Source of the DNA: a virus
IMG/VR virus record: IMGVR_UViG_3300033571_005053
Location: 1 to 43,723 of that record
Strand: one strand, 5' to 3'
DNA: 43,723 nucleotides
Shown: piece after piece, positions 2,095-39,735 of the stretch
How positions within the stretch are numbered: position 1 is the stretch's first letter
Layout: each line of letters starts with the position of its first letter
Notes under the pieces: generated by a model
The model's database searches: none
What the model was told of the DNA's origin: nothing
Seen by the model: only the letters and a program-made list of their open reading frames with translations
Program-made: the position numbers and the translations under genes

Positions 2095-3141
2095 ATGTCC
2101 AATCACCGATTGAGTAACGTCAAGCGGATCCTGCTGACTGGCGGGGCCGGCTTCATTGGCAGCCACGTGCTGCAGCAGATGGTCGAGACCTGCCCGCAGT
2201 GGCACTTTGTGGTGATCGACCGGCTTGATTCGTCGGGCAACCTCAACAGGCTGGCTGAGCTGAACCTGCCGATGGACCGGGTGAAGTTCATCTACCACGA
2301 CCTAAAGTCGCCGATCACTGGGCAGCTGGCTTACCAGATCGGCCATATCGACAGCATCATGCACCTAGCTGCTGCGACGCACGTCGATCGGTCCATCGAG
2401 GATCCGATGTCGTTCGTCATGGACAACGTGGTGGCGACGTGCAGCCTGCTGAATTACGCGCGCACGCTGCCGTACCTCCAGTCGTTCCTGTACTTCAGCA
2501 CTGACGAGGTGTTCGGTCCTGCGCCTGAGGGTGTGGCTTACCGTGAGTGGGATCGCTACAAGTCTGGCAATCCGTATGCCGCGACCAAGGCTGGCGGCGA
2601 GGAGCTGGCGCTGGCATTCCACAACACCTACAAGCTGCCGGTGATCATCACGCACACCATGAACGTGGTTGGCACGATGCAGCACCCGGAGAAGTTCGTG
2701 CCGATGACGATCTCCAAGGTCCGCGACTCGCGGACGGTGACGATCCATTCTGACAAGACCCGGACAAAGGCTGGCAGCCGGCACTACATCTCGGTCAGGG
2801 ATGTGGCCGGTGCGCTGATCTTCCTGATGTCGGCCAGCGATGGCTTCAGGGAATTCGGCGGCAAGTACAACATTGTCGGCGTCAAGGAAATCAACAACCT
2901 GCAGATGGCGCGGATGATCGCGACGGCGATGAACAAGCCGCTGGACTACGAGATGGTGGACTTCCATTCGAGCCGCCCCGGCCATGACCTGCGCTATGCG
3001 CTGGACGGGTCGCTGATGGCGAGCCTTGGCTGGCGTCCGTCGATCGACATCTACGACGAGATCAAGCACATCGTGGACTGGAGCCTGAAGAACGACCACT
3101 GGCTGTCGCCGCCGCAGCCGCGCCTGAGGGTGACCGCATGA
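2095..3141 (+). CDS. NAD-dependent nucleotide-sugar dehydratase/epimerase, RmlB-like
   Basis: A 348-residue extended short-chain dehydrogenase, the usual length for dTDP-glucose 4,6-dehydratase and its relatives. The Rossmann signature GGAGFIGSHV is at about residues 14-23. The RmlB-type catalytic trio Thr136-Asp137-Glu138 lies in STDEVFG, and the YxxxK pair is Tyr161/Lys165 in NPYAATKAGGE. Family knowledge links the TDE trio plus Tyr/Lys to 4,6-dehydration of an NDP-hexose through a 4-keto intermediate, though close relatives are 4-epimerases or decarboxylases. The ATG at 2095 is preceded by AGGGGGAA. The gene overlaps the methyltransferase start by four bases (ATGA). With a glycosyltransferase and methyltransferase alongside, it probably makes or remodels a sugar for surface or virion glycosylation. 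RmlB itself is not proven, so no symbol is given. Confidence 0.88.
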   Translation: MSNHRLSNVKRILLTGGAGFIGSHVLQQMVETCPQWHFVVIDRLDSSGNLNRLAELNLPMDRVKFIYHDLKSPITGQLAYQIGHIDSIMHLAAATHVDRSIEDPMSFVMDNVVATCSLLNYARTLPYLQSFLYFSTDEVFGPAPEGVAYREWDRYKSGNPYAATKAGGEELALAFHNTYKLPVIITHTMNVVGTMQHPEKFVPMTISKVRDSRTVTIHSDKTRTKAGSRHYISVRDVAGALIFLMSASDGFREFGGKYNIVGVKEINNLQMARMIATAMNKPLDYEMVDFHSSRPGHDLRYALDGSLMASLGWRPSIDIYDEIKHIVDWSLKNDHWLSPPQPRLRVTA

Positions 3142-3680
3142 ACGACGTGGTTCAGCAGCCGCTGCGGATCGACCTTGGTGCCGGCCCCAACAAGCGAGAA
3201 GGCTTCGTCGGCGTGGACATCAGGCCTGCCACCGGCGTGGACATCGTGACCGACCTGCGCGAGCGGTGGCCCTTCGATGACGACTCCGTGGACGAGGCCA
3301 ATGCGCACCACGTGATCGAGCACTTCGACGCCGCTGGCAGGATTCACTTCGTCAACGAGCTGTACCGGGTATTGAAGCCCGGGGCCAGCTGCCAGATCGT
3401 AGCGCCGCACTGGGCGTCGTGCCGTGCCTATGGTGACCTGACTCACCAGTGGCCTCCGGTGAGTGAGTTCTGGTTCTACTACCTGTCTGCTGATTGGCGC
3501 AAGGCCAATGCGCCGCACAACGACGGCTATCGGTGCAACTTCGCGGCGACGTGGGGCTATGCAATGCACCCGTCGCTCAACGCGCGGAATCAGGAATACC
3601 AGCAGCACGCCCTGCAATTCTGGAAGGAAGCAGCTCAAGACATCATCGCCAACCTCAAGAAAGAGCCCATGCCACCGTGA
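3138..3680 (+). CDS. SAM-dependent class I methyltransferase
   Basis: A 180-residue protein with a short class I methyltransferase fold. Motif I is IDLGAGPNK at about residues 10-18, followed by the acidic end of strand 2 in VGVDI. HHVIEHFD and RVLKPGA match the post-motif segments of the Methyltransf_11-type family. The start overlaps the stop of the sugar dehydratase gene (ATGA), and the gene's own stop overlaps the terminase GTG start. Given its neighbours, methylation of a sugar (as in O-methylated glycans) is the most natural guess. A DNA or protein target cannot be excluded, because no target-recognition domain or base-methylation signature such as DPPY/NPPY is seen. Confidence 0.78.
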   Translation: MNDVVQQPLRIDLGAGPNKREGFVGVDIRPATGVDIVTDLRERWPFDDDSVDEANAHHVIEHFDAAGRIHFVNELYRVLKPGASCQIVAPHWASCRAYGDLTHQWPPVSEFWFYYLSADWRKANAPHNDGYRCNFAATWGYAMHPSLNARNQEYQQHALQFWKEAAQDIIANLKKEPMPP

Positions 3681-7918: not shown

Positions 7919-8184
7919 GCATCACAGTCCGTCGTTTCGTGACCGACTTCGAGAAGATCGTGTCTCAGAATGTCGTGGAGGAATCCATGAAGCTGAGCAG
8001 GGGGATTGCGCCCGACTATGCCATCTACAAGCAGTCGTGCGGCTACCGTGCGGGTCTGGAGGCGGCCGTCGCCATCGCCCGGGAGATGCTGAAGCAGATC
8101 GAGGATCTGCAGGACCGCGACGAGGGTGGCGAGCTGCCCGAGATCAAGCCTGCCCGACAGCCCAAGCAGAGGGTTCAGGCATGA
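7915..8184 (+). CDS. Conserved-looking phage hypothetical protein (89 aa)
   Basis: An 89-residue protein starting at ATG 7915 with a four-base overlap with the previous stop and ending in a four-base overlap with the GroES-like gene. It is mostly helical, with a central YKQSCGYRAGLEAAVAIAREML segment split around a single Cys and an acidic-to-basic tail. I recall proteins of similar size and pattern (a Tyr-rich stretch followed by a regular helix) near portal genes of other phages but can attach no function. Its location suggests a head-assembly or packaging accessory role; that is inference only. Confidence 0.65.
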   Translation: MSITVRRFVTDFEKIVSQNVVEESMKLSRGIAPDYAIYKQSCGYRAGLEAAVAIAREMLKQIEDLQDRDEGGELPEIKPARQPKQRVQA

Positions 8185-8579
8185 CGGTCAAGCAGTGTAC
8201 GTTCGAGGCTCCGGTGCGTGACCTGAACGCCTGCCCGATCAAGCCACTTGGCTGGCGGCTGGTGATCGCGCCATACGAGCCCGAGAACACCTCGCAGGGT
8301 GGCATCCTGATTGCCGAGCAGGCGCTCGAATCGGAGCGGCTGCTGACCTTCTGCGGCAAGGTGGTCGCTGTCGGAGAGGCGTGCTACAAGGCCGTGACCC
8401 GTTCCGGCCTTGACATGTCGCTATGGGAGCGGACCCCGAAGGTGGGCGACTGGGTGATTTACGGAACCTATGGTGGTCAGCGTGTCGTGACCAAGGGCGG
8501 TGCCCGTTTCGTGATCACCAATGACGATGCGGTGCTGGCCATCGTGGATGGTCCGCAGGACTTCAAGTACTACCTGTGA
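8181..8579 (+). CDS. GroES-like co-chaperonin
   Basis: A 132-residue protein that reads as a GroES/Cpn10 fold. IKPLGWRLVIAPYEPE matches the opening strand of GroES (the KPLxDRVxVxP style). SQGGILIAE at about residues 38-46 matches the mobile loop, with the Ile-Leu-Ile at 42-44 in place of the GroEL-contacting Ile-Val-Leu. GKVVAVGEA and KVGDWVIYG follow the later strands. It is about 35 residues longer than bacterial GroES, with an insertion after the GEA turn and an N-terminal extension. Phage GroES substitutes such as T4 gp31 help the host GroEL fold the major capsid protein; by analogy this one probably serves the capsid gene 2 kb downstream. The ATG at 8181 overlaps the previous stop (ATGA); the open frame further upstream is shadow. 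Confidence 0.85.
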   Translation: MTVKQCTFEAPVRDLNACPIKPLGWRLVIAPYEPENTSQGGILIAEQALESERLLTFCGKVVAVGEACYKAVTRSGLDMSLWERTPKVGDWVIYGTYGGQRVVTKGGARFVITNDDAVLAIVDGPQDFKYYL

Positions 8580-25176: not shown

Positions 25177-25665
25177 ATGGCGAAGATTTCAATCAGGGTT
25201 GCGAGGGCTGTCGATGCCTCCAACCTGTATCGGCTGCTGGAGGAGGTTCACTCAGAATCTCCGCAGTATCCGCCGGTGGACCCGGCCATGGGCCTGCGCT
25301 GGGTGACAGACACCTTGTGCGACGGGTACGTGATTGTTGCGGATTTGTCTGGCAGACTGATAGGGTCTCTGGCACTGACCAACTACCAGTTCCCGTGGTC
25401 GCGGCGCTGGTATCTGTACCTCGAATGGCTCGCGGTGTACAAGCGGTTCAGGGCAGAGGGCGCGTTTGATGCACTGATGGCGGCGGCTCACGCATACGCT
25501 GATGAGCTGAAGGCTCCCATCCTCGCTGGTGTCTCTGCGTCTGGGAAGGATGTGTTCATCAAGGACCGTCTGATCCAGACGCGTGGGTATACCTACATCG
25601 GGGGATCTTTCATCAGGAGTGCCGCCAATGGGCAGCAGCAAGAAAAAGACCAAGCAAGTCTATAA
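25177..25665 (+). CDS. GNAT-family acetyltransferase
   Basis: A 162-residue protein with the GNAT outline. An N-terminal strand-helix (ISIRVARAVDASNLYRLLEEV) is followed by YVIVADLSGRLIGSLAL, the typical beta hairpin of the fold, then LYLEWLAVYKRFRAEGAFDALMAAAHAYA, where LAV is followed by the acetyl-CoA loop and helix (the pattern R/Q-x-x-G-x-G/A here as RAEGAFDAL). A C-terminal half follows that ends in RGYTYIGGSF. It uses acetyl-CoA to modify an unknown amine or protein. Such phage genes in virion clusters are often annotated only by fold. It overlaps the next gene by 38 bases, so the two are probably co-translated. Confidence 0.72.
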   Translation: MAKISIRVARAVDASNLYRLLEEVHSESPQYPPVDPAMGLRWVTDTLCDGYVIVADLSGRLIGSLALTNYQFPWSRRWYLYLEWLAVYKRFRAEGAFDALMAAAHAYADELKAPILAGVSASGKDVFIKDRLIQTRGYTYIGGSFIRSAANGQQQEKDQASL

Positions 25666-26539
25666 GCCGCCGGAGTGGGTCGAGGACGCGTCCAAGCAGG
25701 CCATTGGGCTTGGGCGTCAGATCGGCTCGCAGGCCTATGAATCCTACGGTGGCGACCGTGTGGCGGGGCTGTCTGAGAACGAGCAGCGCGCTTTGACGCT
25801 GGCCGGGCAGTCCGAAGGCCAGTGGAAGCGCTACCTCGACCAAGGTGAGGCAGCGCTGAGCCGCATGGGCGAGCGCTTCACCGATACGGACATTCAGGGC
25901 TACATGAACCCCTACATCAGGGGTGCGCTGGAACCTGCCGCCCGAGAGGTGCGCGAGTCTGGCGCGCGTCGTCTTGCCGACTTGCGCGCCACCCGAGCCC
26001 AGCGAGATGCCTTTGGTGGCTCGCGTGGTGCGCTTCTCGAATCAGAGGCGCAGCGTGGAACAGAGCAGACGCTGAGCGATCTGTACGCTCGCGGCTATGG
26101 CCAAGCCTTCGAGTCGGCTGCCGATCGCTGGGAGCGAGACCGGGCGGTCGGCATGCAGGAGGCACAGGGCTACAACGTGCTGGCGCAGCTCTATCAGGAC
26201 GCCACCCAAGCCGACATCAACGCCCTAATGACGACGGGTGCCACGGATCGAACGATCCGGCAGTCGCTGGCCGACTTCGACTACCAGCAGTTCAGGGAGG
26301 GGCGTGACTGGGACGTGCGCAATCTGGCTGGCCTGCTGTCGGCCATCCAAGGCACGCAGGGTTCCTATTCCACCACGACCACGACCACTGAGAAGCAGAG
26401 TGGCGGGGCTGCCAGTCAGCTCCTCGGCTTGGCGGCCACGATCGGTGGCGCGGTCATGACGGGTGGTGCCAGTCTTGCCACGCTGGGTGGCGCACTGTCT
26501 ACCGCTGGCCAGAGCGTGCTTGGCGGCAAGCAGACGTAA
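25628..26539 (+). CDS. Internal virion/ejection protein
   Basis: A 303-residue protein from ATG 25628, with AGGAGT upstream; a longer frame from 25583 is rejected because it lies deep in the GNAT gene. A basic N-terminus (MGSSKKKTKQVYKPPEW) is followed by long amphipathic helices (RVAGLSENEQRALTLAG, LARGYGQAFES-like) with a YMNPYI element, and the last 60 residues are Gly/Ala-rich and hydrophobic (LGLAATIGGAVMTGGASLATL). This is the shape of phage ejection or internal core proteins, which are injected and insert in the membrane. A fixed T7/P22 family is not claimed. The neighbouring two genes have the same style. Confidence 0.7.
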   Translation: MGSSKKKTKQVYKPPEWVEDASKQAIGLGRQIGSQAYESYGGDRVAGLSENEQRALTLAGQSEGQWKRYLDQGEAALSRMGERFTDTDIQGYMNPYIRGALEPAAREVRESGARRLADLRATRAQRDAFGGSRGALLESEAQRGTEQTLSDLYARGYGQAFESAADRWERDRAVGMQEAQGYNVLAQLYQDATQADINALMTTGATDRTIRQSLADFDYQQFREGRDWDVRNLAGLLSAIQGTQGSYSTTTTTTEKQSGGAASQLLGLAATIGGAVMTGGASLATLGGALSTAGQSVLGGKQT

Positions 26540-26554: not shown

Positions 26555-27853
26555 ATGGCACGACTTCCAGAGCCGGACTACATGCAGGCAGAGCGCCAGA
26601 GGCTCGCTGGGGCGCTACAGGCGGCCCCTGAGGGCTCCGCTGGCGGGCCTGCCCTGACCACCTACCCCATGGATGGGCCGGGCGCTGTGCCCGGCCCAGC
26701 GTTGCAGATGAGGCCTGTGCAGGTCCAAGAAGGTTCCATGGGGCAGCCGCCGCCAGCTCCGGCAGGGCAGGCTCCGGCTGGGGCTCCCCCTTCTCAGCCG
26801 GCTCTTGCCAACCCGCAGCAGGCGGCTGCCCCACCCCCGATGACGCCGATCCAGATGATCGAGGAGACGCCCCCGGAGGTGCTGCTGGAGACTGCCGAGC
26901 AGTCTGCCGATGTCACCAGCAGGACGGTCAAGAGCAACCCGGATGCCGCCCCGCAGGTCAATGCTGCGCTGCAGCAGGCCGGCGTCAATGTCGAGGAGGC
27001 AGTCACTGACCTGACTGACCGGCTTCTCGACAAGGCCGCCAAGCGGGCCAAGGGTCGCGAGTCGCCCCAGTACAACGAGACTGAGTGGAAAAACCGCTGG
27101 AAGAACGTGTTCAACGTCATCCCGCGAGACCAGATGGGCCTATTCCTGATGGACTTCGGCTTGCGCCTGATGGCCGCTGGTGGCAGCGGTCAGGGGAACC
27201 TAGCCAGCCATATCGGTCAGGCCGGTCACGGAGCCCTCGGCGGGGTGATGGAGCGCAAGGCAGCCTCCGAAAAGACGGCGCGCGAAGCTGAGGCTGAGGC
27301 TGGCAAGACTGCCGCAACAATGGTCGGGGTGCAGTTGGAGGCAAACCGCGCCAAGCTGGAGGCTGCGAAGGACAAGCAGATCCTGCCTGACAAGATCGTC
27401 TATGACGAAAACGATGCCGCGTTTTTCGACTTTGGCGATGGCAAGGGCCTGACGCCGCTGACCATGAACGGCAAGCCGATCAAGCTCAGTCCTCGCGATC
27501 GTGGCAAGAATGGCAGCAAGTATGCGCAGGAAATCATGCTGGAGAACCTGCGCGCTGTTGGCTATAGCGACCGCGAGGCCATGGATCTGATTCAGGGCGC
27601 TCCTACCGCTGCAGAGATGCGCTTCAAGTTCGCCCAGACGTTCGATGACCTTGCGTTCAATCAGAGCGCACGCGCGGCGCCCCCGGGCGGCAAGCAGCGC
27701 ACGCGGATGTCAGAGTGGACGCCAGCGCAACGCAAGGCTTGGATCGAGCAGCGGGTTGCCGAGGTGTCCGGCATTGCCGGCGGCAACCAGCAAAACGCGA
27801 CTGGTGTTGGCGGGAACGGCCCGCGACGCCCGCCGGGGTTCAACGATTACTGA
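26555..27853 (+). CDS. Second internal virion/ejection protein
   Basis: A 432-residue protein from ATG 26555, 15 bases after the first ejection candidate. Residues 1-120 are Pro/Ala/Gln-rich and low in order (APAGQAPAGAPPSQPALAN). The rest is helical, with EETPPEVLLETAEQSADV and a coiled-coil stretch near residues 240-275 (KAASEKTAREAEAEAGKT). No enzymatic motif, signal peptide or clear membrane segment is visible. Its place before the 3814-residue protein and in a run of candidates makes an internal or ejection role likely. Sequence alone cannot confirm packaging into virions. Confidence 0.65.
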   Translation: MARLPEPDYMQAERQRLAGALQAAPEGSAGGPALTTYPMDGPGAVPGPALQMRPVQVQEGSMGQPPPAPAGQAPAGAPPSQPALANPQQAAAPPPMTPIQMIEETPPEVLLETAEQSADVTSRTVKSNPDAAPQVNAALQQAGVNVEEAVTDLTDRLLDKAAKRAKGRESPQYNETEWKNRWKNVFNVIPRDQMGLFLMDFGLRLMAAGGSGQGNLASHIGQAGHGALGGVMERKAASEKTAREAEAEAGKTAATMVGVQLEANRAKLEAAKDKQILPDKIVYDENDAAFFDFGDGKGLTPLTMNGKPIKLSPRDRGKNGSKYAQEIMLENLRAVGYSDREAMDLIQGAPTAAEMRFKFAQTFDDLAFNQSARAAPPGGKQRTRMSEWTPAQRKAWIEQRVAEVSGIAGGNQQNATGVGGNGPRRPPGFNDY

Positions 27854-27863
27854 GGGAGCATGA

Positions 27864-30800
27864 ATGGCCACCGACCCGAAGGCGCTTGAGCAGGAACTGG
27901 ATCTCGCCTACCAGAAGTTCAGCAAGGCCCATGAAGCTGGAGATCGCGAGAACGCCAAGCGCTTCAGGGACTATGCCTTGGAACTGGAGAAGGCGATCGA
28001 GGAATCTCGACGCCAGCCTGCAGCGCCTCAGGAGTCCGGTATCGAGGTAGACGAGGCCGCGCCGAAGGCTGCGCCAAAGCCGTATACCCCGCCAAAGGCC
28101 GAGGCCCAGCAGCCTGCCGACACCGGCATTGACTGGGGCGAGGACATCCCCCCGCCGGCGCGGCGTGATGGCACGCCGATCCTGATTCCGCCCGGCTCCA
28201 CCAAGCCGACCCAGAAAACCGAGATCGAGGGCGGCGACCTGTGGACCGCCATCAAGTACTCGGCAACGTCCCGCGTCTCGAACTATCTGTCGGCTCGCGA
28301 GAACATTCGCCGCCGCCGCAACCTGACGACCTCGCTGGTGGCGCGCGAGCTGCCAGAGGAATGGCGCACTGAGATCGAGTCGTCTGCTGACAAGCCCATC
28401 AAGTCGATGACTTTCATGGAGCTTGATATTCGCGCTCGCCGCCGCTATGGCGACAAGTACGATGAAGTCCTCGGCAGGCTGAAGGAAAACCCCTCCGTAG
28501 CCTCGATGATTGACGAGGCCAAGACCGACTCCGGGGTCAACCTGTACGAGTCGATCATCAGGCCGGCATTCAGTCCGTCCGACGAGTTTTCTGTTGCCGA
28601 TGTCTGGAAGGAAAAGCTGGACAGCACGGTCAAGCAGTACAGCGAGTCTGCGCAGCAAGGCAGGGAAAAGCCGTTCCTCAACCCAGAGGCGACCATTGAG
28701 CCCGGCACTTGGTTCGAGGGGACCAAGATGCCTTGGGAAGATCTCGACGCGTTTGTGCTATCTGCTGCTGAGAACTCGGTGCAGATCGGCGAGGGTATTG
28801 CTGCCGCTGCCGTTGGTGGCAAGGCTGCCGGGCCGATCGTGTCGCGTCTGGTTGGAAGGACTGCCACGCCTCAGGCCTTGAGGGCGGCCACCGACAAGGT
28901 TGCCGGCCGCCTCGGCATGGCCGCCGGCGCGACCTCCGAAGCCTACTCGGTCAAGGATCAGGTCGAGGCAGAGACGTTCCAGCGCCTTCAGTCGCTGCCT
29001 GACGAAAAGTGGCAGACGGACGAGGAATACCACCGTCTCCGCGATGGCGGCCTCACTGATGAGGAGGCTCGCTTTGTGCGGTCGCAGGAGCTGTCTGCCA
29101 CTGCCGGAAACGTCGCTGGTGTCGTGTCTGGCTTGGCCCTTGGCGCTCCCATGGGCTACCTGTACGGCAAGCTGGCTGGCCGGCAAAGCGCCGCTCTTGG
29201 CTCGCGGGAGATGGTATCTGCACTATCGCGCAGCACGCTTGGCGCTGCCAAGGGTTTCGCTGGAGAGGCCGCGCAGGAAGGCACTCAGGAATTCACGGAA
29301 AACACCATCGGCAATGTTGCCGTCAGGATGGTTGATCAGGAGCAGCAGATCTTTGCTGGCGGCTTGAACGCATTCCTTGGCGGTGCCGCCATGGGTGGTG
29401 CGTATGGCCTTGCTGGCGGCGCGCTGTCTGCCGCAACCGGCGTGCCCGGCATCGACAAGGAAACTCAGAAAATCCTCGACGCATCGCGCGCGTGGGAGTC
29501 TGCAGCCAAGGCGCGCTGGAAGTTGCAGGCGGAAATTGGCGACCCCAACTGGGGCACCGACATGCTGCCCGGCGAACGCCTGAGAAAGATGGTCGATCTG
29601 GAAAACCTCCAGATGGAGGAGGCCGAGGCATTCAATGGCGTTGAGCCGCTGCTGCGCAAGCAGATGACCGCCAACAACGCTGGCGAGGCTGAGTTTGCGG
29701 CACTTGACCGCATGGCAGCCAGCGCCAAGGCGACCATCGATAGGGTCAAGCAGTCGCGTGAGTCACGCGAGGAATCGCAGCGCGCCGCTGAGGAACAGCG
29801 GAAGGTTGATGCCGAGCGTGAGCAGATCCGCGTCAAGATCGAGCTTGACCAGATGAAGCTGGCGGATGTTGAGCGCATGGCCGACAACATCCACAAGGTT
29901 CGCTCCATGCAGGCGCTGGAGCAGGCAGATTACGAGGAGCTTCAGAGAGAAGGCTACGGTCGGTGGAACGTCAAGGGTGACAAGTTCATCATCACGCCAA
30001 AGGGTGTGCGTGCTGCCGGCGAGCTTGAGCGTCAGGCCGAGCTGCTGAACCAGCGTCTCCAGTCTGGCTACACCGGACCTGAGCGGCGCGCAAACCTGCA
30101 GCTGCGCGAGCGCATCAAGGCGATGAGCCCCGAGCAGCTTGAAGCTGCCGTCTATCTCACCGACAAGACAAACCTGCTGAACAGGCGCGCGTTTGACGAG
30201 GCTGAGAAGGACAATCCGTCTCCTGCTTATGCAGAGATCGACGCAGACTCGGTTGCGTGGGTCAATGACAACTGGGGTCACGAGTATGGCGACAAGCTGT
30301 TGTCTGCCATTGCTGATGCTGTTAGGGAAGAAACAAAAGACCTAGATGGAGTCGCCGCGTACCACAAGAGCGGAGATGAATTTGCCATCACTGGTACGTC
30401 GGAGGAGCAGCTTGAGGAGATCATGCAGCGTGTCAAGACACGCCTGCAGGGTAGCCCGATTGTCAACGGAAAAGAGTCCGTCCTGCCGACAGTAACGTGG
30501 GGCACAGGCCCCACCAGCGTCGATGCAGACAAGACGATGCTGGAACGCAAGAAGGAACGCACCGCTGCCGGAAAGAGGGCTGATCGCAAGGCGCGTCCTG
30601 CTACATGGCAATCATCTTCATTGCTGCTGATGACTGGCGGAGAGGATGTCGATGCCGAGCCTGCTGGTGAGCATGGCAAGGCACAGTTGTCCATGCTGGA
30701 CGTTGGCTATGGGTATGGCTTCAGTGGCGGCGAAGGCATGCGTTTTGGGCCAGCGAGGGCAGATGCGCTGGCTATTCCTGCTGAGTTTGCCGAGCTTGTT

Positions 30801-33800
30801 GGCGATCCCAGCAACCTGTCGTTTGTCCGTGATGGCAATGGCCACGAGGCTATCAGCGGTGCTGATGCCAAGCGAATCATCGAGGCGATCGCAGAAAAGC
30901 ACGGCATCGAAACGCCGTCGTCTGTAGCTACTGCTTTGTCTCGCTCTCAGGTTCCGTTGCTTGAGGCTGGAATTCGCGTGCTTGGCAGGGAGATTGACCT
31001 GTCTGCAGGAACGGTGCGCTCCATCATTGATGGTGACGCCAAGACGGTCGCCCTAGACACGATGAACAAGATCCTTGCTGGGTTCCGCGTTGCGGTCAGC
31101 AAGTCCAGCCCCGGAATGTACAACGCCGACAGTGAGCAGGCAGCACTGCCCGCTGCATGGGCGTCCAAGATCACGCTGGTAAAGCCGTCGCTGCCAAAGC
31201 AGAAGGCTATTCGAGAAACCCCGAGGTTTGCCGCAGGCTCTCAGCAGCCGTTTGATTTCGACTTCAAGCCGCGCTACACGACAAGGGCCAAAAGGGCGTC
31301 GAGGAAGCACATGCGCCGGGCTGAGGCGGCCATGGCTGCTGTGTTTGGTCAGTACAAGAACCTTCCGACAGTCACCTTGGTAAACACGGTCGATGATCTG
31401 CCAAGCGGCGTGCTTGCAGACTTGCGCGCCATGGGCGGCAATCCCTATGGCGTGCGCGGCATGTTCGATGAAAAGAATCCTGCCAATGGCGTGTTCATCG
31501 TTGTCGCCAACAATCTCAACGTCTTGTCTCGTGATCTGAAAAAGCCGGTGTCGTCAATCAAGCCGTCCGAGCTTGAGGGGGCGATCATCGAGACCGCGTT
31601 CCATGAAATCGTTGGTCACTATGGCCTTCGTGGCTTGGTAGGCAGTCAGGAGAATCTTGATCGTCTTGCTGAGCTGATCGTCAAGTCGTTCCCGCGCGAG
31701 GCCACTGCTACTGCGTTGCGCATCGGTGCAAACATGGCCTTGCCACGCCATCGAGCGCTCGTTGGCGAGGAGACGTTCGCATATCTTGCCGGCGAGATTT
31801 TGGCCAAGCGAATCACGCTTGATCCGAAAGAGCGCACCTTGTTCAGGCGAGCCATCAACTGGGTCAAGACGCTGCTGCGCAAGCTCAAGTTTGATCGGTT
31901 CCTGAAGATGACCGATCGGGACATGATGGCGCTGATTGCCGAGGCGCAGATCTTCGTCAAGTCTGGGAACAAGTGGAAGTTCCAGACCATGAACGGAGAG
32001 ACGTTGACGCCTTACATGCGCAACATGGAGATGTTCAAGAACGGAATGCTGAAGGCTGTCCAAGAGGGGACCAAGCCGCTCAACAAGAATGAGCGCGCGG
32101 CGCTGGCTGCCAAGGATCCGGCCATGGCCGGCGTTAAGGAAATGCCGCTGTTCCCAGAGACTGGCACCGTTTCCGCGTACATCGCCGCAGTCGAGTATGC
32201 GATGGCAAAACTCGGCTATGTCAGCAAGACCGAGCTGACCGCATCTGGAATCATGGAAATGCTGCGTCCGCCGCTGCTGCGGAAGCTGGCATTTGATGTC
32301 CATCCTGAGACTCTAGATGAAAATGGTCGCGGCCTTACCGATCAGCAATTCGCTGCGCATTTTGGCGTGCCGCTTGAAGATCTTGACGAGTTCTTGCTGT
32401 CAAATTCCTTGACAGAGGAGCAGGTTGCAAAGGCACAAGAGCTTGTCGAGCGGTTCGACCTAGATCGTGACATCTACTCGTCAGAAAGACTTGCGGCCAA
32501 CAATGGTCTGAATGCCCAGCAGCTGCGCAGCTATGTCGATGGCGGCATCGATGAGCAAATCAAGCTGTTGCCTCCGCGCGTACGCCCAAAGGTTGAGGAG
32601 CTGCTTAATATCCGCTCGCAAGCGATGAGCAGCAGGGATGATCAGTACATCAATGCAACTCTTGAAATCGATAAACTTTTCAGGGCACCAGCTGACCCGA
32701 AGACGACGGTCATCAACAAAAAGATGATCTTGAAGTGGCTCACTGATGCCTTTGCGCACGTCGAAATTTTCCCGTGGTCTATCGCTGATGTAGACCCAAC
32801 GGATGCTCAGGCTGTAAAGCTGGCCTACACAAGGATCACCGGGCAGCGCCCGTTGCTACCCGGCTATGCGCACGACCAGCTCAACGACAATGCGCCTTGG
32901 ACTGCTGGCGATGCGCAGTCATTCCTGATGGGGCTTGATGAGGAATTGCGCGAGAGGGTCATCGCCGAGATGGCTGCCATCAAGGCAAAGGGATATGACT
33001 ACGGATTTGATCCTCAGCTGAACCGCTGGTTTGATTGGGTGCAGCCAAACAAGCAGCACGAGCATAGCCGCTACACCCCTGCCGGGCTGTCCACCGAGGA
33101 ATACATGACTGTCGCCTTGTACGACAAGTCAGCGATGAAAGTCCGCTCTGAAAGCATCAGGCATGGCCACTATTCTGGGTCTGCTTGGCCGCGCGGGAAT
33201 GTAGGTGTGCTGTTCCACATCAGGCAGAGCGTGGTCAATGATGCGTCCAAGAATCCGCCTACCGCTCCAAACAGCAAGTATCAGGGTAAGGCGTGGTATC
33301 TGGTTGAGCTGCAAACCGACTGGTTTGACAAGCATCGGTCGCTGAATAGCGAGGCTGCCCGCGTTGCTTTGACGGCTCGCACCAGAGAAAAAGGCGACGC
33401 CCTGTTCACGTCAATTGGTGCGTTCACAGACGTTGTTAGCAGGCAGGTATTTGATGCAATGGTCGAAAAGACCAAGAGCATCATTGAATCAGTCTTGCCT
33501 GATGCTGAGCAAGACGCTGATGCGTGGCTCAGCGCTGCGACTGAATCTGTAAAGCAGAACGAAAGCAAGCGTATTGGAGTGCAACCTGAAAACCTCAGGC
33601 AGGTGCTGATCGAGCGCAGGCTAAAGTCTAGGACCAGCGAGCGGCTTTCGATGCTCGCCGGCGAAATTGTCAATTTCATGGGCGATAGAAACACTCTGTT
33701 GCACAAGGCAACTTCGTCTCGCCGCCTGCGCATCACTGCGGACGCCAGAGAAATTGCCCGCGCCAACAACATGGCGGTCAAGGAATTTTTGTGGGGGATG

Positions 33801-36800
33801 AGCCGCAGGATCGTTACCATCAGGGAGGCCGCGTCGAATGCCAATTGGTATACGTCATGGAATGGCACGGAGCCGGTCTTCAGCGACGAATTTAAGGACA
33901 TCCTTACGTTTGGCGAGGTGACAAGGGCGTCTCTATACGACTCTCGCAGCAGCTATTCGAGTCTCAGCGTGCATCAGCATATCGCCAATGCGATTGGAAC
34001 TAGCCAGCTATCTAGGCTTGGCTATGCCAAGAAGGAGCTTAGGCGGGAGCTTGAGCTGCTGTATGACAAGCTTGGCATTGATCTGAGCAAGCTCGATCAC
34101 GCCATGTCTAGCCTGTCAGAGGCAAAGGTGTATCGCTGGTCAGTGCCACTTGACACGATCCCGGTCATTCTAGACGGCGAAAAGGCGATGCACGCTGGCG
34201 CTGATTCGTTCATCAGGTCAGCCATTGATTACGTACACAAGGTTGACCATCGCTATTCGTCAGAAAACTTCAGGGTGCAAAGCGACGTTGGCAACGCCGA
34301 CTCAGACGTATCGATCAGCTATACGGGATTGGTCGCTGAAAGCCTAGATGAAGCCAAGGAAGTGCTGCTAAAGGCCATTGATCACTACGTGTCAAATGAG
34401 CTGCCCCAGCTTTTTGACGCGTGGGCAGATGAAGTGGTCGTCAATACAACGAGGCAGCGTGAGCGCAATAGGCTCTCAAGCTCAGACGATCAGGAGCTGG
34501 CAAAGAAAACCATTCAATGGCTTGGCCTTGAGGAAAAAGATACCGACGAATTCAGCAACGTAACCGAATACTCGCTTGGCCACTATGGAATTGTGACCAA
34601 GGAAGACTACGTATCAGAAAGACTCCCGGACGAGATCGACTTCTACCGCGAAAATGGGGAGAACTACATCGACTGGAGCGCAGAAGAATTCGACGATCAT
34701 CCGCTTGACACCGATCATCCGGAGTATCGGAGCCGTGTCGTTGTTGATGCAGATGAAAATGAAGATGCGACCCTAGCAGATGCGTGGCTTGAAGAACGCA
34801 GACGCGAGCGGGTCGAGGAGATGCTTGAGGGAGGCGGCTATCTGTATCAGATGGCAGAGGAAGCTGCTGCGTCAAATTATGAAGATCAGGTCATCTACCA
34901 TGCGATCCTTCCATCTGGAATCGTCAACAGGGATCTTGATCCGATCCCGCAGGTAGAGATTGTTCAGGTCAAGAGTCACAGCGGTGACTGGAGCGTCTGG
35001 GTTGACGGAGAGTATGTTGCCGAGGGTTTGTCTCGCGAGCGAGATGCTGACATAAAATTGATGCAGGGTGTGATTGCCTATCTTGAGGACAATCGTGTAA
35101 TTGCGTGGAAGCCTGAATTCCCGTGGAGCCAGCAGGCCCCTGCGCAGCCAGATCCTGTTGATCGCCCTGAAAAGCCTGACTTTACGTCTTACGCAAAGGC
35201 CATCGCAGGGGAAATCGAAAAGAGCGGCGAGGCAACAGTCGTTGACGCTGGCGTCCTATACGAGCAGGTAATCGATGCCGCGAAAATCACCTCGTCCCCG
35301 GTGGTGCCAAAGTCTCACCTAGCCAAAGACGAGGTGTGGCGGCTTATTGCCCTGCGCTACATCATTGCTGACGCTGTCAGGCGCGGCATTCCGAAAGTCA
35401 TGTGGCATGGCGGCGAAGGAACCAGCAAGCGCGGCGGCGGCCTGAGCTTCACGACCGTTGAAAGAATCGTATGGCGCAAGGCGTCAATGGAAGTCAACGG
35501 CAAGACCAAGGACGTGGTTGTCATCGAGACACCGCGATACTCTGGCAATTCAATCATTCTTGAGTTGTCCGCAGACAGGATTGCCCCTGTCCTTGGCCAA
35601 GACGTTTATGAACTGATGATGCGCCAGATTGCTGGCAAGGCCCCGCTGCGCGCTGGCGAGGCAGATATCAGCGGAACGCCGCAGCTTGATGATCTTGTTA
35701 TTGGCCGGGCTGGAGAGTCTTGGGTTTTGCATCGTGTTGGTGATCCATCGATTCTCAGCATTGCCACCACCAGAGAGGAGATTGAGGGCATCCGCAGCCA
35801 AATGTTTGCAGATGCTCAGCGCAATGGCTCGTGGACTGCAGTCTTATCGCAGTCCCCGGTGCAGCGGTCGATCAGCAGTGGTTACGGTGAAAGCCACGAG
35901 GAGACCGCTAGGCTAATTGCGGATTTTGAGGCAAAAGTCCCAAATCTTGGCGTGTCTGAGGCAGACATCTCGATGTCTGGCGAGATCACTGGGGACATGC
36001 TTGGTGGTGGTTACATCTACCTAGCAACTCACGAAACAGACTCGTTCATGCATACGCCAGCCGGAGCCGATAGCTATGGCGCTCGGCTGATGGGCGCACG
36101 AATCAACTATGACGGCATGCTCAACAGGATCTGGTCAAAGGAACTGAAGAAGTACGGTGTGCAAATCACATCCGGAGCTGCTGTCGTTCCAAGCTCAATG
36201 ACCGCTGACGAAGTTAGGGCTGAAGGCTTGCGAGTCACCAGCAGCTACAGCGATGCATTTGTGCAGCAGTATGGAACGCCAGTGATTGTCAAGATCAGCG
36301 GCGAGACATCCGGCTTCGCTGTTGTCAGTAATGCTGGCCCGATACTCAATAGGGTGTATTGGACCAAGGATGAGGCTGAGCGTGCGCTGAATGAATTCGT
36401 GCGCACCAAAAATGCAGAGTTGCTGTCAACCAAACTGTACGAGTTCACGATCAATGACGCTTTGAGGGAGGCGTTTTCTGGCCCTGTCGTGCCATTCAAT
36501 TACGATCCGTACAAGGATCCTGTACTGAAGGCTGCGGCAGAGCGCATTGGCAGCCGTAAGCCAAGCCTCAGGTCGCGCATCGATGCGTGGCGCAGGACGT
36601 GGAAGGACTCGTTCCTGCAGGGCACGTTCGATCGTTTCCATGGCATCAAGTCGGCAATGACGGACGCAGACCTGCTGAAGGTCGAGGCCGCCCAGAATCC
36701 GTACATCCAAGCACGGCTGTCCACCTCGCTTGATTCCGTGATGACTGCGGTCATGGACTATGGCCACCCGATCTGGAAGGACGGCATCGTCCAGACGGAG

Positions 36801-39308
36801 GGTCGTGGGCTTGCTGAAGTCCTCAGGCCAGTGTCTGGCCAGATCGAGTTGTGGGCCATGTACATGGCTGGCGTGCGCGCCAAGCGGCTGTTGTCAGAGG
36901 GTCGCGAGAACCTGTTCAAGCCTGAAGAAATTGATGCGATGGTCAAGCTTGGCGACGTGTACCCGATGTTCAAGGAAGTCGCCAAGGACTACGCAGCGTT
37001 TCACAAGCGTGTGCTGGACTTTGCGCAGGAAGCCGGGGTCATCAATCCCGAGACCCGGCCAATGTGGGAGAACGCGGATTACGTCCCGTTCTACCGTGTC
37101 GAGGACGACCGTCTGGTCGGGCCGCTTGGCCCGGGTCGTGGCATCGCCAACGTCAGATCTCCGATCAAGCAGCTGAAGGGCGGCACCGAGAACGTCCAAG
37201 ACATCATGCACAACATCATGGTCAACCTCACCAATCTGGTAGACGGTGCCATGAAGAACCATGCTGCGTTGCTGGCGGTGGATTCACTGCGCCAGAGCGG
37301 CATCATTGCGCGTGAGCCGTTGGCGTTCTCGGCAGAGCTGATCCCGCTGGAGCAGGTCAAGAAACTGCTGATCGACAAGGGGATCAATCCGGCGACCATC
37401 CCGCCTGATGCCCTGAGCGGGTTCCAGAAGATGTTTGCCCTGCAGGCCCCGAAGGGCGACGGCATCATCAGCGTGCTGCGCAATGGCAAAAAGGAGTTCT
37501 ACTACACTGACGACCCGATCCTGTTCAGGGCGCTGTCGTCCATCAACCAGAAGTCGTGGGGCGCATGGATGAGCCTGCTGCGCGGGCCGAAGCGCCTGCT
37601 TACTTCATGGGTTACGCTGGACCCGGGCTTCATGATCGCCAACTTCATGCGCGACGCCTTGTCGGCATTCGTCATCAGCCGCGACAAGTTCATCCCGATG
37701 GCGGCCGGGCTCAAGGGTTTCGCCAAGGCGCTGGTCAAGGACGAGGACATGCGGACGCTGCTGTCGTCAGGCGCGTCATTCGAGTCAGGCTTCATCAGCC
37801 AAGGCGACCCGGAGACGACCAAGCGGATGCTGAAGGCAAAGATGAAGGACAAGTCCTTTGCCAGAACCGTGCTTGACTCGCCGGTGAAGCTGTATGAGGC
37901 ATGGAAGGCCATTGGGTCTGCGGCCGAGAATGCCAACCGTCTGGCCGTCTATCAGGCTGCCCTGCGTGCCGGCAAGTCCAAGGCGCAGGCTGCTTACGAG
38001 GCCAAGGATCTGATGGACTTCTCCATGTCAGGCGACTGGCCAATGATCCAGTTCCTGATCCAGACGGTGCCGTTCATGAACGCCCGCCTGCAGGGTCTGT
38101 ACAGGCTTGGTCGCGGCGCAGCAGAGCACCCGGTGGCCTTCACCATGAAGGGTGCGCTGGTCGGCATGGCTGGGCTGGCCTTGTGGTTCGCCTTCAAGGA
38201 TGACGAGCGCTACAAGGATCTGGAGGACTGGGACAAGGACACGTACTTCCACTTCTGGATTGACGACCAGCACTACCGGCTGCCGAAGCCGTTCGAGATC
38301 GGCGCGATCTTCAACACCATTCCGGAGCGCATCTTCGAGTACATGTACTCGAACGAGACCGATGCCGGCAAGCTGCTGCTGAAGCGGTTCGGGTTCATGC
38401 TGACGGAGACGTTCTCCATGAACCCGATCCCGCAGGCAGTGATGCCGATGGTGGAGAGCTGGTTCAACAAGAGTTTCTTCACCGGCAACCAGATCGTGTC
38501 GCCATTCGAGGAGCAGCGTCTGCCGCCAGAGCAGTACCGCTACTACACCGCGCCGACGTTCATCGAGCTTGGCAGGGCTCTGCCTGCGCCGCTCGACCTC
38601 GCCAGCGACAAGATCCGCAGCCCATTGCAGCTGCAGAACCTGTACTACGGCTACACCGGGACGCTTGGTCGGTATTTCGTGATGGGCTCTGACGCCCTGC
38701 TCAGGCACTACGCAGAGATGCCCATGCCGCCTGAGAAGACGATCGCTGAGTACCCGGTGATCGGCAGGTTCGCTCGCGGCGACGATCCGCGACGCACCCG
38801 CTACGAGGAGGAGTTCTACAACATGCTGCGCAAGACGCTGCAGGTTCAGAACTCGGTCAGGTTCCTCGATAAGGTCGGCGAGGATGAGCGCATCGACTAC
38901 ATCGAGGGCAAGTACGACCCGTACATCGTCGTGGCCAAGGAGCTGGAGAACGCCCGCCAGCAGGTCCAGAAGCTGGATCAGCAGATGCGCGAGATCTATC
39001 TGGACCCGGCCATGACCCCGCAGGAAAAGCGGCGGGAGGTGGATCAGCTGCAGACCGAGAAGAACGCCATCTTCAAGGAAGCCTACCTGCTGCGTCCGGG
39101 TGGCCCGGAAAACAGGCAGCGTCCGGCCACGCAGGAGGAGGTCAAGTTCCTGATCGAGCGGTTCAACTTCAGCCAGCCTGAATCCAACAAGCTGCGCGAG
39201 GTTGCCCCGATCACGGCTGACCTGCTGCAGGAGATCAAGATCCTAGAGCCCAAGTCTTTGGCATCGATCGCCAAGCTCGCGCCAATCGAGGAGAGCCCGA
39301 ATGAGTAG
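27864..39308 (+). CDS. Giant 3814-residue polyvalent protein with GGDEF, zincin and LPD38-like regions; probable ejected virion protein
   Basis: This ORF encodes about 420 kDa. In order: a charged/Pro-rich N-terminus; hydrophobic Gly/Ala-rich segments near residues 310-320, 413-436 and 498-525 that could insert in membranes; a coiled coil 630-680; a GGDEF-type domain about 762-905, with LLNRRAF, D793-A-D795, N801-D802, GHEYGD (Asp810) and S836-GDEF-840; a zincin-like HEIVGHYGLRG at 1247-1257 with possible third ligand Glu1302 or Glu1303 in GEETFAY; a polyvalent-type module with LVELQTDW at 1813-1820, then LIALRYIIADAVRRGIPKVMW (2494-2514) and YDGMLNRIWSKELKKYG (2749-2765); and an LPD38-like end with LDPGFMIANFMRDALSAF near 3253 and a hydrophobic helix near 3430. 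Family knowledge ties LPD38 and zincins to proteins injected with phage DNA. The GGDEF catalytic set looks intact, without an I-site RxxD. Enzymatic activity and virion location are inferred. The region about residues 1820-2485 is unlike the rest and AT-richer. Confidence 0.8.
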   Translation: MATDPKALEQELDLAYQKFSKAHEAGDRENAKRFRDYALELEKAIEESRRQPAAPQESGIEVDEAAPKAAPKPYTPPKAEAQQPADTGIDWGEDIPPPARRDGTPILIPPGSTKPTQKTEIEGGDLWTAIKYSATSRVSNYLSARENIRRRRNLTTSLVARELPEEWRTEIESSADKPIKSMTFMELDIRARRRYGDKYDEVLGRLKENPSVASMIDEAKTDSGVNLYESIIRPAFSPSDEFSVADVWKEKLDSTVKQYSESAQQGREKPFLNPEATIEPGTWFEGTKMPWEDLDAFVLSAAENSVQIGEGIAAAAVGGKAAGPIVSRLVGRTATPQALRAATDKVAGRLGMAAGATSEAYSVKDQVEAETFQRLQSLPDEKWQTDEEYHRLRDGGLTDEEARFVRSQELSATAGNVAGVVSGLALGAPMGYLYGKLAGRQSAALGSREMVSALSRSTLGAAKGFAGEAAQEGTQEFTENTIGNVAVRMVDQEQQIFAGGLNAFLGGAAMGGAYGLAGGALSAATGVPGIDKETQKILDASRAWESAAKARWKLQAEIGDPNWGTDMLPGERLRKMVDLENLQMEEAEAFNGVEPLLRKQMTANNAGEAEFAALDRMAASAKATIDRVKQSRESREESQRAAEEQRKVDAEREQIRVKIELDQMKLADVERMADNIHKVRSMQALEQADYEELQREGYGRWNVKGDKFIITPKGVRAAGELERQAELLNQRLQSGYTGPERRANLQLRERIKAMSPEQLEAAVYLTDKTNLLNRRAFDEAEKDNPSPAYAEIDADSVAWVNDNWGHEYGDKLLSAIADAVREETKDLDGVAAYHKSGDEFAITGTSEEQLEEIMQRVKTRLQGSPIVNGKESVLPTVTWGTGPTSVDADKTMLERKKERTAAGKRADRKARPATWQSSSLLLMTGGEDVDAEPAGEHGKAQLSMLDVGYGYGFSGGEGMRFGPARADALAIPAEFAELVGDPSNLSFVRDGNGHEAISGADAKRIIEAIAEKHGIETPSSVATALSRSQVPLLEAGIRVLGREIDLSAGTVRSIIDGDAKTVALDTMNKILAGFRVAVSKSSPGMYNADSEQAALPAAWASKITLVKPSLPKQKAIRETPRFAAGSQQPFDFDFKPRYTTRAKRASRKHMRRAEAAMAAVFGQYKNLPTVTLVNTVDDLPSGVLADLRAMGGNPYGVRGMFDEKNPANGVFIVVANNLNVLSRDLKKPVSSIKPSELEGAIIETAFHEIVGHYGLRGLVGSQENLDRLAELIVKSFPREATATALRIGANMALPRHRALVGEETFAYLAGEILAKRITLDPKERTLFRRAINWVKTLLRKLKFDRFLKMTDRDMMALIAEAQIFVKSGNKWKFQTMNGETLTPYMRNMEMFKNGMLKAVQEGTKPLNKNERAALAAKDPAMAGVKEMPLFPETGTVSAYIAAVEYAMAKLGYVSKTELTASGIMEMLRPPLLRKLAFDVHPETLDENGRGLTDQQFAAHFGVPLEDLDEFLLSNSLTEEQVAKAQELVERFDLDRDIYSSERLAANNGLNAQQLRSYVDGGIDEQIKLLPPRVRPKVEELLNIRSQAMSSRDDQYINATLEIDKLFRAPADPKTTVINKKMILKWLTDAFAHVEIFPWSIADVDPTDAQAVKLAYTRITGQRPLLPGYAHDQLNDNAPWTAGDAQSFLMGLDEELRERVIAEMAAIKAKGYDYGFDPQLNRWFDWVQPNKQHEHSRYTPAGLSTEEYMTVALYDKSAMKVRSESIRHGHYSGSAWPRGNVGVLFHIRQSVVNDASKNPPTAPNSKYQGKAWYLVELQTDWFDKHRSLNSEAARVALTARTREKGDALFTSIGAFTDVVSRQVFDAMVEKTKSIIESVLPDAEQDADAWLSAATESVKQNESKRIGVQPENLRQVLIERRLKSRTSERLSMLAGEIVNFMGDRNTLLHKATSSRRLRITADAREIARANNMAVKEFLWGMSRRIVTIREAASNANWYTSWNGTEPVFSDEFKDILTFGEVTRASLYDSRSSYSSLSVHQHIANAIGTSQLSRLGYAKKELRRELELLYDKLGIDLSKLDHAMSSLSEAKVYRWSVPLDTIPVILDGEKAMHAGADSFIRSAIDYVHKVDHRYSSENFRVQSDVGNADSDVSISYTGLVAESLDEAKEVLLKAIDHYVSNELPQLFDAWADEVVVNTTRQRERNRLSSSDDQELAKKTIQWLGLEEKDTDEFSNVTEYSLGHYGIVTKEDYVSERLPDEIDFYRENGENYIDWSAEEFDDHPLDTDHPEYRSRVVVDADENEDATLADAWLEERRRERVEEMLEGGGYLYQMAEEAAASNYEDQVIYHAILPSGIVNRDLDPIPQVEIVQVKSHSGDWSVWVDGEYVAEGLSRERDADIKLMQGVIAYLEDNRVIAWKPEFPWSQQAPAQPDPVDRPEKPDFTSYAKAIAGEIEKSGEATVVDAGVLYEQVIDAAKITSSPVVPKSHLAKDEVWRLIALRYIIADAVRRGIPKVMWHGGEGTSKRGGGLSFTTVERIVWRKASMEVNGKTKDVVVIETPRYSGNSIILELSADRIAPVLGQDVYELMMRQIAGKAPLRAGEADISGTPQLDDLVIGRAGESWVLHRVGDPSILSIATTREEIEGIRSQMFADAQRNGSWTAVLSQSPVQRSISSGYGESHEETARLIADFEAKVPNLGVSEADISMSGEITGDMLGGGYIYLATHETDSFMHTPAGADSYGARLMGARINYDGMLNRIWSKELKKYGVQITSGAAVVPSSMTADEVRAEGLRVTSSYSDAFVQQYGTPVIVKISGETSGFAVVSNAGPILNRVYWTKDEAERALNEFVRTKNAELLSTKLYEFTINDALREAFSGPVVPFNYDPYKDPVLKAAAERIGSRKPSLRSRIDAWRRTWKDSFLQGTFDRFHGIKSAMTDADLLKVEAAQNPYIQARLSTSLDSVMTAVMDYGHPIWKDGIVQTEGRGLAEVLRPVSGQIELWAMYMAGVRAKRLLSEGRENLFKPEEIDAMVKLGDVYPMFKEVAKDYAAFHKRVLDFAQEAGVINPETRPMWENADYVPFYRVEDDRLVGPLGPGRGIANVRSPIKQLKGGTENVQDIMHNIMVNLTNLVDGAMKNHAALLAVDSLRQSGIIAREPLAFSAELIPLEQVKKLLIDKGINPATIPPDALSGFQKMFALQAPKGDGIISVLRNGKKEFYYTDDPILFRALSSINQKSWGAWMSLLRGPKRLLTSWVTLDPGFMIANFMRDALSAFVISRDKFIPMAAGLKGFAKALVKDEDMRTLLSSGASFESGFISQGDPETTKRMLKAKMKDKSFARTVLDSPVKLYEAWKAIGSAAENANRLAVYQAALRAGKSKAQAAYEAKDLMDFSMSGDWPMIQFLIQTVPFMNARLQGLYRLGRGAAEHPVAFTMKGALVGMAGLALWFAFKDDERYKDLEDWDKDTYFHFWIDDQHYRLPKPFEIGAIFNTIPERIFEYMYSNETDAGKLLLKRFGFMLTETFSMNPIPQAVMPMVESWFNKSFFTGNQIVSPFEEQRLPPEQYRYYTAPTFIELGRALPAPLDLASDKIRSPLQLQNLYYGYTGTLGRYFVMGSDALLRHYAEMPMPPEKTIAEYPVIGRFARGDDPRRTRYEEEFYNMLRKTLQVQNSVRFLDKVGEDERIDYIEGKYDPYIVVAKELENARQQVQKLDQQMREIYLDPAMTPQEKRREVDQLQTEKNAIFKEAYLLRPGGPENRQRPATQEEVKFLIERFNFSQPESNKLREVAPITADLLQEIKILEPKSLASIAKLAPIEESPNE

Positions 39309-39735
39309 CCCGTTCAAGTTTGGCAAGGCGTCCAACGACAAGCTGAAGACCTGCCATCCTGATCTTGTGAGGGTGGCAGAGCTTGCCCTGTCCAGATCTC
39401 CGGTTGACTTCACCATCGTCTGGGGCTGGCGGGATGCGGCCCAGCAGAATGCCATGGTTGCCGCCGGCGCCAGCAAAACCCCGTGGCCGAAGTCCAAGCA
39501 CAACGCGACGAACCAAGCCGGGGAGCCTGCGTCGAACGCCATAGACTTCGCCCCGGTGGTCGGTGGAACAATCCCGTGGAAGGACACGCACCTGTTTGCC
39601 GTCGTGGCCGGCGTGCTGATGTCTGCTGCGGTGGAACTTGGCGTCAGGCTAAGATGGGGCGGAGATTGGAACATGAATGGCCTGACCACCGATCAGACGT
39701 TCATGGACTGGGGCCACGTAGAGAGACTTGAATGA
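39301..39735 (+). CDS. Endolysin, M15-type L-alanyl-D-glutamate peptidase
   Basis: A 144-residue peptidoglycan peptidase of the M15_4 type (T5 Lys and Ply500-like). The zinc ligands are visible as His67 in SKHN, Asp82 in AIDFAP and His139 in DWGHVE, with the WGGDW element at 115-119 before the last ligand. The fold cleaves the stem peptide at L-Ala-D-Glu or similar bonds. No signal or membrane segment is visible, so export should depend on a holin. It starts at ATG 39301, eight bases inside the end of the giant gene, and its own stop overlaps the following start by four bases. First gene of the lysis cassette. Confidence 0.9.
   Translation: MSSPFKFGKASNDKLKTCHPDLVRVAELALSRSPVDFTIVWGWRDAAQQNAMVAAGASKTPWPKSKHNATNQAGEPASNAIDFAPVVGGTIPWKDTHLFAVVAGVLMSAAVELGVRLRWGGDWNMNGLTTDQTFMDWGHVERLE

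Follow-up and report, generated by a model that had tools for sequence, protein, structure and literature searches.

A mobile GGDEF domain with conserved active-site residues in a giant phage protein

A giant protein of 3814 residues, encoded by a phage, carries a GGDEF domain that belongs to a phage-type subfamily, keeps the metal-binding, guanine-binding and catalytic residues of diguanylate cyclases, and is mobile between giant proteins that otherwise differ. The protein is encoded by a single open frame of 3814 codons at 27864-39308 (+) of a 43,723-base IMG/VR virus record, analysed at its full length and referred to here as the window. Since positions 17864-43723 are 100% identical to a portion of a 63,541-base IMG/VR contig, the giant ORF is present in two records and the window probably represents the same virus in a shorter copy, with ~20 kb missing.

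The domain was detected by both profile and fold. The giant matched PF00990 (E=1.9e-9, 38 bits against a Pfam cut-off of 23.8), TIGR00254 (42.4 bits against an NCBIfam cut-off of 37.4) and the PHROG phage family phrog_5594 (E=1.1e-21). An AlphaFold2 model of the domain, built with 33 phage sequences, had a mean pLDDT of 95.7 and a pTM of 0.87, and Foldseek matched it to 102 PDB chains at E<=0.001. The best 50 of these 102 chains were all GGDEF proteins and nearly all diguanylate cyclases, the top match being SiaD (7e6g, E=5e-11) with DgcZ and DgcR also among the leading ones, and a sequence profile of the phage alignment recovered the same kind of structures. The original prediction had proposed a profile search and a structure prediction as checks on a GGDEF-type cyclase domain, and both bore it out. 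The giant carries a GGDEF domain, with a match far beyond chance, and a fortuitous motif is ruled out by the profile, the fold and the conservation described below. The predicted extent of 30150-30580 (residues 763-906) lay within the homologous module, which proved slightly longer: profile, fold and BLASTP of relatives place it at residues ~740-912 (30081-30599, +), with the Pfam core at 769-884. Seven PHROGs listed as of unknown function (5594, 14602, 11823, 9661, 26035, 8342 and 34213) also match the GGDEF domain and are likely to be GGDEF families with missing annotation.

Single-protein scans for GGDEF relatives retrieved the duplicate contig alone and an alignment query was required, for which the window domain was aligned with standalone Yuavirus and Vojvodinavirus proteins. 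This query retrieved 43 viral loci, 32 of which, beside the window, were of one type. Two loci, the duplicate of the window and L021, which nearly repeats L020, were left out of the subfamily set. The set comprised 33 sequences including the window. Its members are ~30-49% identical to the window copy, and their C-terminal helix ends in KxxRxxxGxRAxRGxxP, where the usual GGDEF helix ends in AKxxGRN. In the three close pairs with estimable dS, dN/dS was ~0.06, 0.11 and 0.25, so the GGDEF domain is under purifying selection in these pairs. The tree placed the phage clade apart from eight other GGDEF sequences (support 91/51, 88% of bootstrap trees), which is moderate evidence since the branches are long. 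Chance capture of an ordinary bacterial gene was considered and rejected: a sequence-pattern scan of genomes covering 84,980 species of bacteria and archaea found only four loci, all on 4-12 kb MAG contigs, against the 43 viral loci, and the phage clade is separate in the tree. A divergent phage GGDEF protein of 378 aa (L045/L046:10001-10390) keeps the GGDEF letters and lies outside the subfamily.

Inspection of the codons placed every active-site residue named in the original prediction exactly where it had been claimed. The D793-A-D795 segment (30240-30248, +) provides the metal-binding Asp of the first strand, D793 being the equivalent of PleD D327, and the guanine-binding N801 (30264-30266, +) is the equivalent of PleD N335. 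The signature at residues 836-840 (30369-30383, +) contains the catalytic D838 and E839. All four of these residues are invariant in the 33 phage sequences, as are G809 and G903. The base-selecting position, D810 in GHEYGD (30291-30293, +), is Asp in 28/33, Asn in 4/33 and Thr in 1/33. A Hypr cGAMP synthase was ruled out as the default reading, since position 810 holds Asp, the residue of GTP-specific cyclases, where Hypr GGDEFs have Ser (PMC6456294). The sequences with Asn or Thr are L010, L015, L016, L029 and L033, and because these make up five of the 33, the product may vary within the subfamily and differ from c-di-GMP in some members.

The window copy lacks the canonical GG(D/E)EF letters and reads SGDEF instead; across the subfamily the motif opens with Ser in 27 sequences, Gly in four, and Thr and Ala in one each. 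Diguanylate cyclases commonly, although not universally, have an inhibitory RxxD site upstream of this motif. The canonical site is absent here (LxxV, with Leu at 827 and Val at 830), so an active enzyme would be without product feedback by the RxxD route. Furthermore, the usual phosphate-contacting Lys of DxDxFK is replaced by Ala798 in the window copy; the Lys is kept in 30/33 sequences. The Ser itself is not disqualifying, since ECA3270, a diguanylate cyclase with SGDEF, is active and a (G/S/A)G(D/E)EF motif has been proposed (PMC3974145), and MbaA, also SGDEF, is apparently active in vivo (PMC8079147). The original prediction was thus right that this variant is compatible with activity. 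In VCA0965 an A-to-S change at the same position inactivated the enzyme (PMC3974145). Taken together, the profile, the fold and the invariant active-site residues support the cyclase reading of the domain well.

The module is mobile between giants. More than 20 large phage proteins matched the giant by BLASTP over residues ~740-912 only. More than the GGDEF domain is common to the giant and L011 or L012, the L011 relative being co-linear with it (matches spanning residues 226 to 3798), and L017, L020-L022, L037 and L039 share its C-terminal carrier region as well. Across the proteins that hold it, the domain lies anywhere from residue ~200 to ~2760 and keeps varied company: ART, RadC, ddrB-ParB, LPD1, LPD5 and LPD38 in the L028 giant, Kinase-PolyVal, RadC and LPD1 in the L015 giant, an inorganic pyrophosphatase (InPase) in L014, and ART with ddrB-ParB in L040. 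LPD39 is also among the polyvalent domains that accompany it in relatives.

Towards its C terminus the giant has a carrier region (36543-39074, +) that polyvalent giants have in common and that contains LPD38 at residues 3447-3633 (38202-38762, +; PF18857 E=1.5e-39), a domain already on the list of Iyer et al. 2017 (PMC5512222). The last ~1100 residues of the giant match 160 phage records, where they are fused to other things. Downstream of the GGDEF domain lies a putative zincin-like metallopeptidase domain (31251-32003, +) with HEIVGH at residues 1247-1252 (31602-31619) followed by a conserved Glu, and HExxGH and the Glu are invariant in seven aligned phage sequences. A zincin-like MPTase occurs in ~36% of polyvalent proteins and an HEXXXH form exists, a type that the HEIVGH and Glu would fit. 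The AlphaFold2 model of this region had a pLDDT of 83 and a fold search of residues 1130-1380 against the PDB gave no significant match, and the domain is therefore kept as a candidate.

Immediately upstream of the giant are a DNA ejection protein (25583-26539, +; phrog_4287 E=2.5e-20) and a gene of no family (26555-27853, +) that has a weak relative in the same place in L012, and directly downstream is an endolysin (39301-39735, +; phrog_465 E=5e-44). This order recurs in part in L012, where the segment from ejection protein to giant is present, and in Synechococcus phage MinM2. The terminase, portal, major head, ejection protein and endolysin genes are all on the same strand as the giant. 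Its length of 3814 aa, the unrelated GGDEF and LPD38 domains and a gene among those of the virion are features of phage-type polyvalent proteins and, judged from its LPD38, its HEXXXH motif and the adjacent ejection gene, the giant is one of them. The MinM2 giant (L062:5788-14199) has the same LPD38 carrier and is annotated as RelA/SpoT; Pfam confirmed the LPD38 and gave no support for RelA/SpoT at E<=0.01.

Several other genes of the window were noted. Just upstream of the terminase, in the phage structural region, lies a sugar-modifying pair (2095-3680): a gene resembling those of GDP-mannose 4,6-dehydratases/epimerases (PF16363 E=6e-45) and, after it, one for a small methyltransferase. A protein with a Chaperonin-10 (GroES-like) domain (8181-8579; PF00166 E=9e-12) is encoded between the portal and head genes, a GNAT acetyltransferase-like gene (25177-25665) adjoins that of the ejection protein, and a PDDEXK_14 phage endonuclease (42944-43423, -) is on the strand opposite to the structural genes. 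No EAL phosphodiesterase was found in the window contig or in six relatives.

From the domain, its fold, the conservation of its active site, its mobility and its gene position, we infer a packaged and delivered polyvalent protein whose GGDEF payload is intact and GTP-selective and likely makes c-di-GMP early, to the benefit of the infection; we hold this explanation to be somewhat better than an even bet. Proteins of the polyvalent class are predicted to accompany the DNA into the cell, and the family and gene position suggest that the giant would be packed into the head along with the DNA and carried into the host at infection. By analogy with JC1 gp69, N4 vRNAP and P1 DdrB, the giant may be packaged and delivered. 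Its ejection into the cell, as the original prediction had supposed, is plausible. Once inside, the zincin-like domain may perhaps cut the payloads apart. GGDEF enzymes act as dimers, and two of the domains would pair and condense two GTP to c-di-GMP, as suggested by the intact residues and the Asp at the base-selecting position. In this way c-di-GMP or a close cyclic dinucleotide could be made in the first minutes, before phage gene expression, and the host pushed into a state that favours infection. As a rough estimate, an assumed ten copies working at one turnover/s for one minute would yield ~600 molecules, or ~1 uM in a 1 fL cell, a level inside the signalling range. That YuA encodes the same enzyme by a gene of its own suggests that it is needed inside the cell and that this need is met in two ways.

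It is also conceivable, if on balance unlikely, that an active cyclase serves as counter-defence, its cyclic nucleotide occupying immunity sensors (CBASS, Panoptes-like or others) or mimicking a keep-off signal. The domain does travel with conflict-type payloads, interference with host nucleotide responses was proposed by Iyer et al. (PMC5512222), and in Panoptes decoy cyclic nucleotides control immunity and are made by OptS, a synthase of related palm fold (PMC12657218). However, the Panoptes decoy comes from the host and not from a phage, and c-di-GMP, the product predicted here, is not among the standard CBASS signals; the CBASS link raised in the original prediction is speculation. We give slightly less credence to the domain acting not upon injection but when expressed late, either in the producing cell or within a lysogen, for example by raising c-di-GMP before lysis, with the fusion merely convenient. 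Standalone enzymes of the YuA gp44 type are simply expressed in the cell, and LK3 lysogens with such a gene formed more biofilm, although this is a correlation only (PMC8471281). Against this, the module has repeatedly been fused to polyvalent giants whose domains best suit delivered payloads, and no tyrosine integrase was found in the window contig or six relatives, which are fragments.

Least probable, in our estimation, is a degenerate, non-catalytic module that binds GTP or c-di-GMP or has a structural part. The Ser at the first position of the motif, the Ala in place of the FK Lys in the window copy and the missing I-site would all fit such a domain, but metal, base and catalytic residues that remain in 33/33 sequences at ~30-49% identity to the window copy would not, and SGDEF enzymes can be active. 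Returning to the delivered cyclase, an active and injected enzyme would allow the phage to reset a global host signal governing motility, surface sugars, pili and biofilm at time zero and without transcription, and would give a testable role to one domain of the large and mostly uncharacterised polyvalent proteins. The subfamily offers easy material for this purpose, with 33 sequences and, from cultured phages, standalone forms of ~150 aa like YuA gp44. More tentatively, and as a broader view that we would not yet lean towards, phages may own a mobile clade of SGDEF cyclic-dinucleotide synthases, carried in virions to set host messengers or blind immunity before expression begins and encoded by some as an ordinary gene.

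A coherent SGDEF subfamily with an invariant active site, shuffled among many giants, appears to be new within the literature searched. The original prediction had gone further in knowing of no phage virion protein with such an activity. That stands for measured activity, as no report of the activity of any subfamily member was found in the literature searched, but not for the idea itself, since Iyer et al. 2017 described GGDEF as "not very widespread" in phage-type polyvalent proteins and proposed the same interference with signalling (PMC5512222). Phage GGDEF genes have also been annotated in YuA, Bordetella phages and SP-15, YuA gp44 long since as a diguanylate cyclase, and gp350 of phage G shows the fold. 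As to the virion, no proteomics study of phiARM81mr was found in the literature searched; JC1 gp69, an LPD38 giant, was identified in CsCl-purified virions by mass spectrometry with 51 unique peptides (PMC9144972).

Among known systems, the giant of the Acetonema longum prophage (WP_004096050.1) also has GGDEF among its payloads and has been proposed to follow the same logic of delivery at invasion, so a GGDEF domain in a phage polyvalent protein is not unprecedented; it differs in its SNF2, DNA methylase, MPTase and ART domains, and is likened here by description, not by sequence (PMC5512222). The podovirus giants of the JC1 gp69 / Bcep22 DarB-like type resemble the present one in their C-terminal LPD38 and their place before the lysis genes, but their payload is a methylase/helicase with a lytic transglycosylase, and GGDEF was not reported. 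The nearest annotated phage relatives are YuA gp44 and its counterparts in Yuavirus and Vojvodinavirus (Pseudomonas and Bordetella phages; ~32-38% identity), which share with the giant the SGDEF motif (AGDEF in Bordetella CN1) and a C-terminal KxxRxxxGxRAxRxxRP tail replacing the usual one; unlike the giant, proteins of the gp44 type stand alone at ~150 aa, and in YuA the gene for gp44 belongs to a group of non-structural genes that lies upstream of the terminase gene. The bacterial diguanylate cyclases SiaD, DgcZ, PleD and WspR have the same fold and catalytic residues, but are only 20-26% identical, generally carry GG(D/E)EF together with other sensory domains, and are chromosomal.
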